Source: a virus. Taken from it: 35,892 nt of DNA. Made by a program: the position numbers and the translations under genes. Of this stretch, positions 2,879 through 11,552 are shown piece by piece; position 1 is the stretch's first letter, and the number at the start of each line of letters is the position of its first letter. The stretch spans positions 1 to 35,892 of IMG/VR virus record IMGVR_UViG_3300042549_000661; one strand, written 5' to 3'. The notes below the pieces were generated by a model. The model was not told the origin of the DNA. It searched no databases and saw nothing but the letters and a program-made list of their open reading frames with translations.

Positions 2879-4255
2879 TCATTTCACTACGGACCAGCCG
2901 CCAGTTGCACCACCAGCAGCAGGCGCAGCGCCTTCCGCAGCCATGTCGCCAGTTGCAAACTGACCCTTGCGCTGAACCATCAATCGCCGCACAGTCTTAC
3001 CGGCTTCTTTTCTAATCTTCGTCGGCAGTGTGGGATCGGCCAATTGACCGGCAGCTTCTTTGTACGATGCGGTGTCCCTGTCGGATTGCGGTCCCTCAAA
3101 ACGAGGAATCATTTTCAATGCCAAATCAGAGACAGGCGCAATCTTACCAATGGCAATTGCGCCCGGTGTTGCTTGACCAACAAAACCTGCACCAATGTCA
3201 AACAATCGACCTGCGCCGCTGCCGGTAGATTGGTCAATCAAACCGCCATCTTTTGTAATGTCGCCCAGTTCCTTAATCGCAAAATCAAGGTCTTTGCCCA
3301 TTTGAGTTCGTTGCGCTGCGGCTTTTTCAGCAAACGCAGATGGTTTACCTTTAACGGGAGCACCACCTTCACCAGTGACTGGTCTTGCAACAGGTGCACC
3401 GCCCGCAGCTAGCCGCGAAGGTAGCGCCACGAGGTTGCCCTGCGCATCCTGTTGATACGTTACACCTTGCGCGTCTTGCGCCAATCGTTGCTGCGCCAAA
3501 CTGAGTTGACCTTGAGACACGCCCAGTTGTTTTTGCGCAGTGGTTTCGCCGATGGTTGCCGTTTTGTCTAATCTGGTTGGCTTGCCAATGGGGACGCCTT
3601 GCGCATTGTAAGTTTGGCGCTCAATGTAGCCTCCTCGATCTGTGTCTTTAGTGGTGACCGCACGTTGCTCAAGTTTGCCCTTAGCATCTAAAGTTTTTGC
3701 AATTGCATTGTTTAAATATGCGTTAAATTCTTCAGGTTTAGTCATAGACGCCAGCAATTGAAGGTCTTCAGCAACTTCCTCAACTTTAAACACTCCGCTT
3801 TTAACGCCCTTATTAAATTCAGCAATTGCCTTTTGAGGAGACGTTGAAGAGCCTATAACATCCCACGCAGCCTTTAATCTTTTGTTTTGCAGGTCAAATG
3901 TATTTTTGTCAATCTCACTCCTAGTTTTTTCTTGCGTTAGTTTAGCTGCTTCTGCCTCGGCTCTAGTTTTTAAGATGCTAGGAATTTGCGCACCGCCGCC
4001 ACGTTGTGCAAGCGAGGGGATCAGTTTGTTGTAATCAACTTCACCTTTTTCATTAAGCGAAGAAGCGTAGGCGTCTGTCAGTGCGTTCTGCACACTTTCA
4101 GCACGTTTCGCTGCGTTAAGCTGGAACCGCGCAAGCTCTTGCGCCTGCTGACCGCCTTGGATTTGCTGCATTTGCGCATACTCAGCCATTGCGTTCCGGG
4201 GCTTGAACTCGGACTGGCGAAAACTCATTGCGATGTCGGGGTTAACAAGTGCCAT
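2879..4255 (-). CDS. Helical internal virion / ejection-type protein
   Basis: This 458-residue protein begins MALVNPDIAMSFRQSEFKPR. Residues 20-150 are strongly helical and Gln/Ala/Glu-rich (MAEYAQMQQIQGGQQAQELARFQ, then repeated QNA, RAEAEAAKL, RSEID runs), consistent with a coiled coil. The middle has another Gln-rich segment (QLGVSQGQLSLAQQRLAQDA), and the C-terminus has a mixed domain ending in a Gly/Ala-rich tail. This Gln-rich N-terminal helix is typical of phage internal or ejected proteins next to the tail genes. An AAGGA ribosome site overlaps the stop codon of the upstream gene, so translation is probably coupled. The role as a P22 gp20-like ejection protein is inferred from position; sequence alone does not prove it. 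Confidence 0.6.
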   Translation of the reverse strand: MALVNPDIAMSFRQSEFKPRNAMAEYAQMQQIQGGQQAQELARFQLNAAKRAESVQNALTDAYASSLNEKGEVDYNKLIPSLAQRGGGAQIPSILKTRAEAEAAKLTQEKTRSEIDKNTFDLQNKRLKAAWDVIGSSTSPQKAIAEFNKGVKSGVFKVEEVAEDLQLLASMTKPEEFNAYLNNAIAKTLDAKGKLEQRAVTTKDTDRGGYIERQTYNAQGVPIGKPTRLDKTATIGETTAQKQLGVSQGQLSLAQQRLAQDAQGVTYQQDAQGNLVALPSRLAAGGAPVARPVTGEGGAPVKGKPSAFAEKAAAQRTQMGKDLDFAIKELGDITKDGGLIDQSTGSGAGRLFDIGAGFVGQATPGAIAIGKIAPVSDLALKMIPRFEGPQSDRDTASYKEAAGQLADPTLPTKIRKEAGKTVRRLMVQRKGQFATGDMAAEGAAPAAGGATGGWSVVK

Positions 4256-5789: not shown

Positions 5790-6206
5790 TTATTCAAGCA
5801 TCAGGTAGCTGCGGGAGTCTTGCTTCCACTTACCTAGGGTTGCATCGTAGATCAGCTTGTCGCCGTCCGATGGGTTCATGGCGCTCACATCGGCCAATTG
5901 AGCCAGCATAGCGGTTACTTGGGCAGGTATCAACGACAACGCCTCAATCTGCTTTTGCATCTCAGCCACTTGCGACACTAGATCGCTGGAGCTTGGCTGT
6001 GTCTGCACTTCCTGCGTTAGCGTCTGAAGCACTGCGTCATAGCTGGCAATCAGCGACTCAGCACTAGGACCGACAACGGGGTCGTTTACGACATCGTTCG
6101 CTACGTTGTTCAGCGACAAGAAGAACAAGTACCACGCCCTGCTAATCAAGCCCGTGTTGGGGTCAACCAGCGGTTCCCGTGGAGGCGTGATGATGGGGTT
6201 AAGCAT
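5790..6206 (-). CDS. Tail-tip/needle-position protein with coiled coil
   Basis: This 138-residue protein starts MLNPIITPPREPLVDPNTGL, an N-terminal peptide frequent in podophage tail proteins encoded next to gp10-like genes. An aromatic helix (WYLFFLSLNNV) follows. Residues about 55-105 form a Gln/Leu-rich coiled coil (LVSQVAEMQKQIEALSLIPAQVTAMLAQL). The end holds a small fiber-type motif, GDKLIYDATLGKWKQ. In P22 the needle gp26 follows gp10 and is also a coiled coil with a short N-terminal plug motif, so position and plan fit a tail plug or needle. The gene overlaps the upstream gp10-like gene by 8 nt, implying translational coupling. The assignment is inference. Confidence 0.65.
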   Translation of the reverse strand: MLNPIITPPREPLVDPNTGLISRAWYLFFLSLNNVANDVVNDPVVGPSAESLIASYDAVLQTLTQEVQTQPSSSDLVSQVAEMQKQIEALSLIPAQVTAMLAQLADVSAMNPSDGDKLIYDATLGKWKQDSRSYLMLE

Positions 6207-7674
6207 TGGTCGGACTCAGGATCAGTTCTGCGCCCATGATGGCGATCTTTACGGGGTCGGTGCCCGACACCTCGTAGACGCGATCACGCAGCTTCAGAGT
6301 CATGCCCAGTCTGCGCCAGATGGCACGGCGATAGTACTCACCGATCTTGCCGATGCTGATCCAGTGCTCGTTGGACCATGTGTGCCCACCATCGTCGCTC
6401 CATCGCAGCATGACCTGTGGGTCGCTGCCTTGCGTGATAACTGTTTGCTGTTCCGCAATAAGTCTGTCATCAGCCTCGGTGACTAAGTAATCGTCCGATT
6501 CGGTTTGCAGATAGATATTTTCAACCCTTGTAAATCCATTCAAACCAGTACCCGACTCGCAGTCAAGCTGGAGGCTGTGGTGCGCGGTGCGCTTCAGATT
6601 GTTCTGACCGGTGGGCAGTGCTCTCCACGAGCGCAGCCACTTTTGGATCTGCCCGTTGTCCGAGTAGTCTTCCAAGTCAAACGAGTAAATGTTGCCGTTC
6701 TCAAAGTCACCCACAACGATCTTGTTGTTAAACGACATCTGGCAGTTGCTGCGGTGACGGGTAAACGCACCATTGACAAACCCTGCCCTCTCGTGCCATG
6801 CCTGTGTGGCGGCATCGTACACCCATGTGGTGTTGGCCGTGGGAAAGATGAGCACGTAGAAGTTGTGGCCGTCTTGCTGGTACGTGTACCCGATGGCGTC
6901 AGTGATGTCAGCGTACTGCTGAATTTGCCACTCGACAGCATGTGTCGAGATGCGCTGACCAGCGTAACCGTTGGCCCGGTAGACCATGCCTTGCCCACGG
7001 CGGTCACGGCCAAGCCAGAACAGGCCGTTGTCCATCTTGGCGATAGAGTAGGGGGCAGCGCAGCCCAACTCATTGAATGCGCCGGGGATGCGCTCAAGAG
7101 GGAAGTCAAGCGCACCGGTGTCAGACCAGACTTCAATTGAGTTCGTGCCAAAGGCCCAGACCTCGCGGAAGTTGGCAATCACAGCCACCAGGCCGTCAGG
7201 TGACCCTTCGGTGCTGGCAAACTCCAGTGGGTCGATGGACGTACCGTCCAAAAGGGCTGTGACCCACATCTTCTGGCTGTTCGGCTCGTTGAACACAAAG
7301 TAGCCGTCCAGATAGGCCACAGTCACTGCACCAGGGAAGTCCGGGTCAGTGATCTGACCAAATGCGTTTGTGTCGGCGTTGTAGATGAAGCTGGGGCCAT
7401 TGCAGGCAATGAACAACTGTGTGCCGTTGTCGGCCATGCTGACAGGGCCAGTTCCTGCCACGTTGCCGATCAGTGTGGGGGTGTAGGCGTTGTCGATCTT
7501 GAACAACTGGGTGCCCGACACCACAAAGCCTGTGCCATCGTTTGACGAGAATGCCCACAGGCCACGGATCGGGCCATTGCCGATCGTGTTGAGCAGGTTG
7601 AGGCCGGGGGCGCGGTTCAGGAACGCAGGTTCTTTGCCAGCCTCGGGCACAATTTCTGGGAACAGGTTGACCAT
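6199..7674 (-). CDS. Tail hub / DNA stabilization protein, P22 gp10-like
   Basis: From the first ATG this is a 491-residue beta-rich protein with repeated blades (GLWAFSSNDGTGFVVSG, TQLFIACNGPSFIYN, YLDGYFVFNEPNSQKMW). It matches the phage stabilization protein family that closes the portal and holds the tailspikes. Members normally begin with a short peptide of the type SPILGSSYVTRSINAADAR just ahead of MVNLFPE. Here that peptide is present in frame upstream (7737-7675), but its start codon reads ATA, with an AGGAG site (7748-7744) 6 nt ahead of it. The protein may therefore start at ATA 7737 (512 residues) or be shortened at the 5' side. The damage lies next to an inserted endonuclease gene. 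The 3' end overlaps the next gene by 8 nt. Confidence 0.88.
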   Translation of the reverse strand: MVNLFPEIVPEAGKEPAFLNRAPGLNLLNTIGNGPIRGLWAFSSNDGTGFVVSGTQLFKIDNAYTPTLIGNVAGTGPVSMADNGTQLFIACNGPSFIYNADTNAFGQITDPDFPGAVTVAYLDGYFVFNEPNSQKMWVTALLDGTSIDPLEFASTEGSPDGLVAVIANFREVWAFGTNSIEVWSDTGALDFPLERIPGAFNELGCAAPYSIAKMDNGLFWLGRDRRGQGMVYRANGYAGQRISTHAVEWQIQQYADITDAIGYTYQQDGHNFYVLIFPTANTTWVYDAATQAWHERAGFVNGAFTRHRSNCQMSFNNKIVVGDFENGNIYSFDLEDYSDNGQIQKWLRSWRALPTGQNNLKRTAHHSLQLDCESGTGLNGFTRVENIYLQTESDDYLVTEADDRLIAEQQTVITQGSDPQVMLRWSDDGGHTWSNEHWISIGKIGEYYRRAIWRRLGMTLKLRDRVYEVSGTDPVKIAIMGAELILSPTNA

Positions 7675-7734
7675 GCGGGCATCCGCAGCGTTGATGCTGC
7701 GGGTGACGTATGACGATCCAAGTATAGGGGACTT

Positions 7735-7762
7735 TATGATATACTCCTACCGCAGCAAGGAG
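7735..7762 (+). promoter_or_regulatory. Endonuclease -10 and RBS overlapping the gp10-like start
   Basis: On the plus strand TATGAT (7735-7740), or alternatively TATACT (7740-7745), can serve as a -10 box. A weak ATGACG lies 19 nt upstream at 7710-7715. AAGGAG (7757-7762) is 7 nt before the endonuclease ATG. On the minus strand the same bases contain the AGGAG site and the ATA that stands where the gp10-like ATG is expected. The promoter call is tentative; the ribosome site is clear. Confidence 0.45.
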
Positions 7763-7769
7763 CCACACT

Positions 7770-8396
7770 ATGATTGAATGGAAACCACTTGTAGGACATG
7801 ACAGCGACTACGAGGTAAGCAACGAAGGAATTGTACGCCGGGTCAGTTCCCGAGGGAAGTTTCACCAGCGGTTTACGCCAGATCAATTGGAGGCAATTAA
7901 GACCAGTTACACCAAGGAAAAAAGCCAGCGAAAAGTAGCTGCGTTGTTTGGTGTTAGTCAAATGACCATAGGAAAGATTGTTCGTGGGCTTGCTTACGTG
8001 GACGCCAACCATGTGCTTGCGCCCGCGCTGCGCAAAGATGGTTACTGGTTTGTTACTTTGTCGGTCGATGGGGAGCACACTCACAAAGCCATTCATACCG
8101 CAGTTGCTGAAGCGTTTTTGGGCGGCAGACCACACAATGCTTGGATAAATCACAAAGACGGCAACAAGGCTAACAACTGCGTCAAAAATTTGGAATACAT
8201 GTCGCCCGCAGGAAATAGCCAACACGCGCTGTATGAACTTGGCAAGTCGAAAAAATTGAGTTTTGATCAAGCCAAAGACATCTGGTACGCAAAACAAAGA
8301 GGCGAAAAACGCAAAGACATTGCGGCCAAGCACAACGTATCCATCCACATGGTCACTGCCATATGGATGGGTAAGTCGTGGTGGCACGCTAGATGA
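7770..8396 (+). CDS. NUMOD4/HNH homing-type endonuclease with two HTH segments
   Basis: This 208-residue protein has a NUMOD4 start (WKPLVGHDSDYEVSNEGIVR, residues 4-23). An HNH nuclease core follows at about 88-153, with H109 in HTAVAEAFLG, the NHKDGNKANN segment at 127-136 and NLEYMSPAGN at 140-149. A helix-turn-helix (about 36-75) interrupts the usual NUMOD4-to-HNH path, and a second, similar one forms the C-terminus (163-205). Such proteins are mobile endonucleases that cut an empty allele to spread. It is the only plus-strand gene in the first 23 kb, and it fits tightly between the gp4-like stop and the gp10-like start. No intron or inteling signal is visible, so it is free-standing. Target site unknown. 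Confidence 0.9.
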   Translation: MIEWKPLVGHDSDYEVSNEGIVRRVSSRGKFHQRFTPDQLEAIKTSYTKEKSQRKVAALFGVSQMTIGKIVRGLAYVDANHVLAPALRKDGYWFVTLSVDGEHTHKAIHTAVAEAFLGGRPHNAWINHKDGNKANNCVKNLEYMSPAGNSQHALYELGKSKKLSFDQAKDIWYAKQRGEKRKDIAAKHNVSIHMVTAIWMGKSWWHAR

Positions 8397-8407
8397 ATAC
8401 ATACTTG

Positions 8408-9121
8408 TTAAAAATTTCCAGCGTAGATGTTGAAACGCTGACGCGAGGCCACAATGGCGTACGGCAGGCTCATGATGTCATCAGGGTTGTTGATGCGCTT
8501 GAGGTCACGCTTGCTGGTCATAGCGATACGCATGACCTGTGGGCTTGGCTCGACGCCAAACTCAGGGGCGATCTCCATCGCCAAGTTGTAGGCAAACGCA
8601 CGCAGGTAACCTGGCGGGAAGAACAAATCTGTCGCCAAGGTGGCGGGGTTGTCCAGCTCTTGCACCGACACAAAGTGCCACTCCAAGTCTTGAGTGGGCC
8701 GGGGGTAAATAAACATCTCCGCATTGGGATACGTCATGTTGACGAAGATCACCTGCGGGTATGTAGACGTTACCGTCTTGACCGCAATGCCGTTGTACTG
8801 CTGCTGGTTAATGAACTTGACGCCATACGACACGCCGTTGGGCGCTTTGAAATATGTAGAGTCATCGAACAAAACTGGGCGAAGGCCCACAAAGTCACCA
8901 GACGGGCCAAGGGTGCGGCTCAGAAGACCAGACGGCCATGTGAAAACTTGATCCTGGGTGCAAAAGACCGACAGACGTTCGGTGTTCCACGACTCAATCA
9001 TTTGCTGCATGGCCATCAAGGCGTCTTGCGACATGGAGGCAGATGGCGTTTCACCTTCGGCAAGAATGCCAAGCAAGCGGAATGCTCGATTGATTTGGTC
9101 GCCAGCGGTGTAGATTGCCAT
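8408..9121 (-). CDS. Tail accessory factor, P22 gp4-like
   Basis: This 237-residue protein starts MAIYTAGDQINRAFRLLG. The helical opening, the MIESWNTERLSVF segment (about 42-54) and the FPPGYLRAFAYNLAMEIAPEFG segment in the C-terminal third are characteristic of the P22 gp4 head-to-tail accessory family. Twelve copies would assemble under the portal ring and connect it to the gp10-like hub. It is longer than P22 gp4, as is usual for relatives outside the enterobacterial group. In order it follows the coat and decoration genes and precedes gp10, as in P22, but the endonuclease gene now separates it from gp10. The ATG lies 2 nt downstream of the previous gene's stop, which suggests coupling. 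Confidence 0.85.
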   Translation of the reverse strand: MAIYTAGDQINRAFRLLGILAEGETPSASMSQDALMAMQQMIESWNTERLSVFCTQDQVFTWPSGLLSRTLGPSGDFVGLRPVLFDDSTYFKAPNGVSYGVKFINQQQYNGIAVKTVTSTYPQVIFVNMTYPNAEMFIYPRPTQDLEWHFVSVQELDNPATLATDLFFPPGYLRAFAYNLAMEIAPEFGVEPSPQVMRIAMTSKRDLKRINNPDDIMSLPYAIVASRQRFNIYAGNF

Positions 9122-10280: not shown

Positions 10281-11489
10281 TTAGCCCCACATGCGGACGG
10301 CCATTTGTGGGCGAATCACGCTGTAGCCGTACAAAACGTCAATACGGCAAGGCAGGCGGTCGTTGTTGATGTCGTACTGGCGCACGATACGCAGGCTGAT
10401 ACCGTTGTGCACAGCGCGAGCAGCCATGTCAACACCTTGTGGCAACAGCAAGTCGGCTGTAGCGAAGGTAATGGCATCCTTGTGGTACACCAAGTTCTGA
10501 GCGTACTGGCTAGAAGCAGCACCCACGAACACGACAGCTTTACCGCTTTGTGGCAGAACGTCCACGGTAGCAAGTGCGTTGCTGGCCGAGTACATAGGAG
10601 CCACAGTGATGGTGCCAGCGCCGGAGCCGTTCAGGGTCACATCAGCAACAGCGACGAACTGGAACAACGAACCAGTGGACTCACGGGTCTGTGGGTTCAC
10701 AGCGAAGCAGTCAGCCACGGTGAACACATCGCCCAGCTTCACGGTGTCGTTTGCACCAGCGCCGGTCACAACAATAGATGTTGCGCCTTCAGCGGTCACA
10801 GCAGCGGACAAAGTGCCGCCAGTAGCGTCACGCGAGCCGGTAGTGAACTGCTTGATCGACTGAGACATGTTGATCTCGTTCAGACCCAACACGCCAGTGC
10901 CCATCATGCCGTTCTTGAATTGCTTGCTGATAGTGTCTGTTGGGTTGAACAGACCTTTCAAGCCTTCAACCAAGCCAGCGTTAGCAGCAGGGTTCACGGT
11001 TGCGTAACGTGGGTCCATCACAGCAGCGTTCTCGTTCAGCTTCTGCTGGGCTTGCAACAGCACCAAAGAAGTCGAAGGAGTGGTGCCAGGTGTACCAACG
11101 GTGTTGCCGATGTACTTGTAGCTGTTGGCCACATCGGCGTCGATAGACGATGCCAACTGGCTGATACGAGGCTTCAAGACACGCTCTGCGAAGTCGTCCA
11201 ACTGCATGGTCAATTCAGCGGATGTGAAGTTGACGCCGATGTGCTTTTGGCTGGAGACAGTCAAAGTGGTGAACTGTTCGTTGTCGTCCTGAACTTGCAG
11301 GGCGGCACCGTCAGTCACCAGAGCGCGGTCGGGCAGGCGAATACGCAGGGTAGAACCGATCTTCGCACCTTCAACAGCGAAGCTGTCGTCGTACTGGCGG
11401 TTCACGTTGCGGGTGATCACGAGGTTGTTTTCAAGTATTTCCAAACTTTTTCTTGTGATCATGTCGATCGTCAGGATAGAGTTACTCAT
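10281..11489 (-). CDS. Major capsid (coat) protein, P22 gp5-like
   Basis: I place the start at the ATG at 11489-11487 (MSNSILTIDMITRKSLEILE), because an AAGGAA site lies 8 nt upstream and this is where the family begins; an earlier in-frame codon at 11531 adds 14 unlikely residues. The 402-residue product has the P22 coat features: a helical N-arm, the QYDDSFAVEGAKIGSTLRIR segment, a HIGVNFTSAELTMQLDDFAERVL helix pair, and a beta-rich insertion region (SGAGTITVAPMY). It ends with RIDVLYGYSVIRPQMAVRMWG. About 415 copies would form a T=7 shell in a P22-like particle. The gene follows the scaffold gene and is flanked downstream by a stable hairpin. Confidence 0.92.
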   Translation of the reverse strand: MSNSILTIDMITRKSLEILENNLVITRNVNRQYDDSFAVEGAKIGSTLRIRLPDRALVTDGAALQVQDDNEQFTTLTVSSQKHIGVNFTSAELTMQLDDFAERVLKPRISQLASSIDADVANSYKYIGNTVGTPGTTPSTSLVLLQAQQKLNENAAVMDPRYATVNPAANAGLVEGLKGLFNPTDTISKQFKNGMMGTGVLGLNEINMSQSIKQFTTGSRDATGGTLSAAVTAEGATSIVVTGAGANDTVKLGDVFTVADCFAVNPQTRESTGSLFQFVAVADVTLNGSGAGTITVAPMYSASNALATVDVLPQSGKAVVFVGAASSQYAQNLVYHKDAITFATADLLLPQGVDMAARAVHNGISLRIVRQYDINNDRLPCRIDVLYGYSVIRPQMAVRMWG

Positions 11490-11552
11490 TTTGACATTCC
11501 TTATTTCAATGGTAAGATGAAGTCTTTGCAATCATCCAGATTACAAATTGAC

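Follow-up and report, generated by a model that had tools for sequence, protein, structure and literature searches.

The described systems closest to the arrangement considered here are of three kinds. T4-like phages have free-standing homing endonuclease genes, seg and mob, which stand alone between essential phage genes, must fit the gene programme of their host and have their own promoter near a flanking gene, with T4 segD also being antisense (PMC2988022). Consecutive frames whose stop and start overlap, as in ATGA or TGATG, are coupled by termination-reinitiation that is efficient and falls sharply with distance (PMC6728339; PMC10666635). Lastly, infC, ccpN, citZ and cvfC1 start at AUA or AUU, with an extended Shine-Dalgarno for infC, ccpN and cvfC1, and in Staphylococcus aureus AUA starts with a strong Shine-Dalgarno work at 10–30% of AUG (PMC13009471), though as a counterpoint IF3 in vitro rejects weak third-base pairs (PMC10158994).

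The locus at issue is in a window of 35 892 nt, the whole stretch of DNA analysed (IMG/VR virus record IMGVR_UViG_3300042549_000661), whose minus strand carries a podophage-like block of late genes. In contrast to the seg and mob cases, its endonuclease gene is antisense to a putatively coupled gene pair, has an open complement strand and is followed on that strand by a stop overlapping a start that may be AUA or AUC; the consulted sections of the review of T4-like homing endonucleases describe no comparable arrangement (PMC2988022). Unlike in known termination-reinitiation, a mobile gene would here supply the upstream frame, on its antisense strand, and AUA or AUC may stand as the start; unlike in infC, ccpN, citZ and cvfC1, the gene is a structural phage gene and its start codon change tracks a neighbouring mobile element. 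An antisense insertion into a translationally coupled operon would not be expected to be tolerated.

The endonuclease genes and the junction they occupy

The endonuclease-like gene of the window (7770–8396, plus strand; 208 aa) has an AAGGAG Shine-Dalgarno at 7757–7762 and comprises NUMOD4, HTH and HNH_3, the HNH_3 and NUMOD4 matches being over their curated cut-offs (29.9 versus 24.8 bits and 25.0 versus 23.4 bits). Such genes are at one fixed site, present in some relatives and absent from others, and that of the window appears to be a free-standing HNH homing-endonuclease-like gene whose cleavage and homing are putative. An intron- or intein-encoded enzyme was considered and rejected: a search for an Rfam intron around the endonuclease gave no match and only about 45 nt of the insertion is outside the ORF, which leaves no room. 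The gene and its 16 relatives at the same junction make up family A (17 loci). Family B (69 loci; NUMOD4 and HNH_3, about 180 aa) and family C (38 loci; HNH_3 and a weak AP2, about 160 aa) bring the total to 124, all of them antisense between gp4-like and gp10-like genes. The IMG/VR contigs are metagenomic, and the relatives from genome collections sit in assorted bacterial assemblies. Three other loci (L036, L028 and L052) have other sequence, including sense-oriented reading frames, inserted between the same two genes, and the junction therefore looks like an insertion hot spot.

Upstream on the minus strand is the gene for a P22 gp4-like tail accessory factor (8408–9121; Pfam PF11650 at E=0.0013, below the curated cut-off), which ends with TAA at 8410–8408. 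Downstream is that for a P22 gp10-like packaged-DNA stabilisation protein (6199–7737, minus strand; 512 codons counted from ATA), with 80 relatives and a PF11134 match at E=7e-10 (38.6 bits against a cut-off of 25). Where no endonuclease is present, TA or TG immediately precedes the gp10 ATG in 68 of 69 loci, the TAATG/TGATG overlap signature, which suggests that the two genes are natively coupled via a one-base stop/start overlap. One locus with an ATC start, L095, has just before it, between the endonuclease start and gp10, the mini frame ATG AAA ACT CCA ATA AGT TGA (MKTPIS), which resembles the native gp10 start, as a remnant of the gene's former beginning would.

Start codons of the gp10-like gene

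On the minus strand the gp10-like start reads TAG GAG TAT ATC ATA (7737–7735) AAG TCC CCT ATA CTT GGA..., then in frame SPILGSSYVTRSINAADAR-MVNLFPE. An in-frame stop is a few codons 5' of the ATA, the AGGAG Shine-Dalgarno (7744–7748, minus strand) is 6 nt ahead of it, and ATG, GTG, TTG and CTG are all missing from the frame before codon 22. The initial annotation had recognized the in-frame N-terminal peptide, the well-spaced AGGAG, ATA in place of an expected ATG and the lack of any conventional start before MVNLFPE, all of which the window sequence bears out. Its further proposal, that phages bearing this endonuclease have lost the ATG, fits the distribution in relatives: ATG is the start in 69 of 69 endonuclease-free loci, while family A has 13 ATA, 3 ATC and 1 ATG. 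The N-terminal peptide is conserved, as it had stated. The sequencing error at 7735 that it had wished to see checked is excluded by the presence of ATA in independent metagenome contigs, one of them from a different phage.

That phage, with 77% gp10 identity, is one of only two with ATA among 80 IMG/VR relatives whose gp10 start was aligned, the other 78 having ATG; both bear the endonuclease of the window. In the 77% case the sequence agrees with the window over the leader on the endonuclease side and the opening codons of gp10 and diverges beyond, like a co-converted tract. A DNA scan with the leader yielded further gp10-like ATA loci, every one behind an endonuclease. Among all endonuclease-bearing loci 18/124 have ATA and 3/124 ATC, compared with 0/69 for either in endonuclease-free loci. 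Does insertion as such then cost the ATG, as the annotation had implied? The counts do not support this: at the same junction, most loci of families B and C retain ATG (60 of 69 in B, beside 5 ATA and 4 GTG; 32 of 38 in C, beside 3 GTG and 3 TTG), and on these alignments ATA is a conserved trait of some endonuclease lineages instead of a general result of insertion. The lone family-A locus with ATG, L205, has a weak Shine-Dalgarno and an endonuclease only 45% identical. A strong Shine-Dalgarno precedes gp10 in 21/21 ATA or ATC loci versus 5/69 endonuclease-free loci. In L470, in an Acidimicrobiales assembly, upstream of position 3001, the gp10 start is ATA and the family-A endonuclease frame ends after 90 codons, so that ATA seems to persist there behind a truncated endonuclease.

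Non-AUG initiation on the gp10-like gene is the likely consequence of ATG loss. Were gp10 to start instead at the internal ATG (7674), which is codon 22 of the frame in the window and also occurs in many relatives, the upstream peptide would be untranslated. This we regard as very improbable: that ATG is missing in L090–L094, with L093 being devoid of any alternative start before codon 40, no alternative start is common to all ATA and ATC loci, no Shine-Dalgarno is ahead of the internal ATG, and the supposedly untranslated peptide is conserved in ATA and ATC loci, where its codon differences are synonymous in 829 cases and replacements in 552.

The strand opposite the endonuclease and a proposed route to reinitiation

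The complement of the endonuclease gene in the window is an open frame (7734–8402, minus strand) that begins with ATG at 8402–8400, runs for 222 codons antisense to the endonuclease and ends with a TAA at 7736–7734 that overlaps the ATA (A-TAA). In every family-A locus there is such an open complement frame from a start codon beside the stop of the upstream gene, gp4 or other, to at or near the gp10 start, and over the three families the complement strand is stop-free in 119/124 loci. Codons whose complement is a stop (TTA, CTA and TCA) number 7/22 067 at the junction, against 95/5213 in endonuclease genes elsewhere, a control that is of family C only and has 20 of its 30 genes sense-oriented; for leucine, TTA plus CTA number 4/1615 versus 46/319, for serine TCA numbers 3/1007 versus 49/283, and in-phase antisense stops per gene come to 0.06 versus 3.17. 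Fisher's test on the leucine and serine codons gives 5e-63 with no account taken of the relatedness of the loci, which are not phylogenetically independent rows. Counting only distinct leucine and serine codon states over alignment columns, 4/446 are complement stops, and representatives of family A (clusters at 75% nucleotide identity) have none where the probability of having none at the codon usage of the window is about 1e-8. Of the seven exceptions, two, in L257 and L258, are in the last endonuclease codons, before the run-through ATG; one, in L295, precedes gp10 by 66 nt; and the remaining four are inside the run-through frame of one pair of loci, L325 and L328.

Generic avoidance of A-ending codons is rejected by the controls, with GTA, ATA, ACA, CCA, GGA, CAA and AAA being in normal or frequent use, and the depletion is restricted to the codon-matched antisense frame, the remaining two antisense frames being unaffected. 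Nor is openness general to antisense endonucleases, because 5/6 antisense cases at other loci contain stops. In-phase antisense frames are often open in this phage anyway (13% of 208-codon windows in the genes of the window). A 416-codon late gene at 10281–11531 (minus strand) has a codon-complementary antisense frame that is fully open, and long open antisense frames can thus arise from codon bias alone in this phage.

What is kept is openness itself, and not an antisense protein: four-fold sites vary without evident constraint, and for every pair compared the antisense translation has a lower identity than the endonuclease (e.g. 0.73 versus 0.94). A functional antisense overlapping gene was accordingly dismissed, its sequence being unconserved and without a Pfam match. 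So was fusion of the antisense ORF with gp10 by a −1 frameshift, since a slippery site is lacking and L094/L095 differ in relative frame.

Antisense insertion of an HNH homing-endonuclease gene into the stop/start junction of coupled late genes should both break coupling and expose long untranslated message, and an open strand would mend both. We think it probable, with a good measure of confidence, that this is why the complementary strand has been kept stop-free. Ribosomes leaving gp4 would start at the ATG beside its stop, read through some 220 antisense codons, terminate at the stop overlapping the gp10 start (A-TAA in the window, ATGA in most relatives) and reinitiate there with the aid of the strong Shine-Dalgarno. 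Since ribosomes would be delivered to the site, start codon identity could be relaxed, with AUA or AUC having taken the place of AUG in family A, and ATA in some of B. That the run-through ORF is translated, that ribosomes reinitiate and that AUA serves as the start in vivo we infer from the arrangement of the sequence. The contact between stop and start is itself plain: in most of the 124 loci the run-through frame ends at +1 of the gp10 start, the rest ending mainly at −2, −4 or −12 to −18. In ATC loci the stop either precedes the start by 15 nt or falls about 8 nt inside gp10, a position likely to be less ideal for reinitiation.

Alternatively, the open strand may serve transcription only, antisense translation preventing Rho-dependent termination within the otherwise untranslated insert while gp10 initiates independently at AUA via its strong Shine-Dalgarno. 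For this, openness alone suffices, all 21 ATA and ATC loci have the Shine-Dalgarno it calls for, and isolated AUA starts with a strong Shine-Dalgarno exist (PMC13009471). It does not predict the precise coincidence, seen in most loci, between the end of the frame and the gp10 start; in its favour, AUGA or AUAA stops in one frame arise automatically if the second codon begins with A. We consider it a minority prospect, and retain termination-reinitiation as the preferred explanation.

What may have favoured ATA

The initial annotation had proposed that the G-to-A change makes a −10 box for the endonuclease by turning CATGAT into TATGAT on the plus strand, with the gp10 AUG as the cost. The substitution is as it described, and by turning CATGn into TATGn it fits the TRTG motif of an extended −10 at −17 to −14 (PMC2613000). 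The box itself has fared less well: no −35 partner for TATGAT was found, which disposes of a sigma-70 promoter with −35 at that place, and the conserved element is instead an extended −10, TGn-TATACT, 5 bp offset from TATGAT and equally present with ATG (CATGCTATACT). In the window this candidate promoter is TATGa-TATACT (TRTGn plus −10; 7735–7745, plus strand), and its first base, at −17, is the complement of the third base of the start codon. Matches to TGnTATAAT at ≥4 of 6 positions overlap the gp10 start in 17/17 family-A and 56/69 family-B loci versus 3/69 endonuclease-free loci. Promoter improvement could explain ATA, which gives T at −17, but not ATC, because that puts G there, and most B loci have the same element with ATG. 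Selection for a stronger promoter is accordingly a tentative proposal, with a benefit of the change to the mobile gene being possible for ATA only.

Avoidance of self-cleavage would cover both codons, if an ATG beside the gp10 coding half were to recreate the homing site. The first gp10 codons are also altered, in a form common to divergent endonuclease-bearing phages, like a co-converted tract. Against this, L205 retains ATG despite its related endonuclease, and B and C live with ATG; escape from cleavage could explain ATA and ATC in family A but not these, and we hold it to be no nearer certainty than the promoter.

A third candidate is RNA structure. A hairpin pairs the two divergent Shine-Dalgarno regions. 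B loci with ATG have a strong form of it that conceals the start (mean probability of the start being unpaired 0.16); in ATA loci it is weaker at the start (0.46 in A, 0.74 in B), and the hairpin of the window does not exceed shuffles in strength. It is a possible tuning element. In the family-B leaders of L232, L226, L256 and L257, where mononucleotide shuffles give a z of about −5 to −6, a strong hairpin joins the region of the endonuclease start to the Shine-Dalgarno and AUG of gp10, which suggests that the two divergent starts are switched together. Candidate causes of the G-to-A change are a stronger endonuclease promoter (T at −17), avoidance of a recognisable homing site, and freeing of the start from the hairpin or expression tuning, with no preference among them.

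The open complement strand and the stop overlapping the start, both absent from the initial annotation, would explain the tolerance by gp10 of a weak start. That the three families share a two-strand design, with the enzyme on one strand and a stop-free ribosome track on the other making antisense insertion tolerable and freeing the start to become AUA or AUC, is in our judgement somewhat better than an even prospect. In three families and >100 phage contigs, the need to keep certain words off the opposite strand seems to govern which synonymous codons a selfish gene uses. If so, gene callers misplace the gp10 start in phages with this arrangement, a structural gene would have natural AUA and AUC starts, the loss of TTA, CTA and TCA only would be a signature for finding such cases elsewhere, and the junction would illustrate how a mobile gene can come to do no harm to an essential operon.
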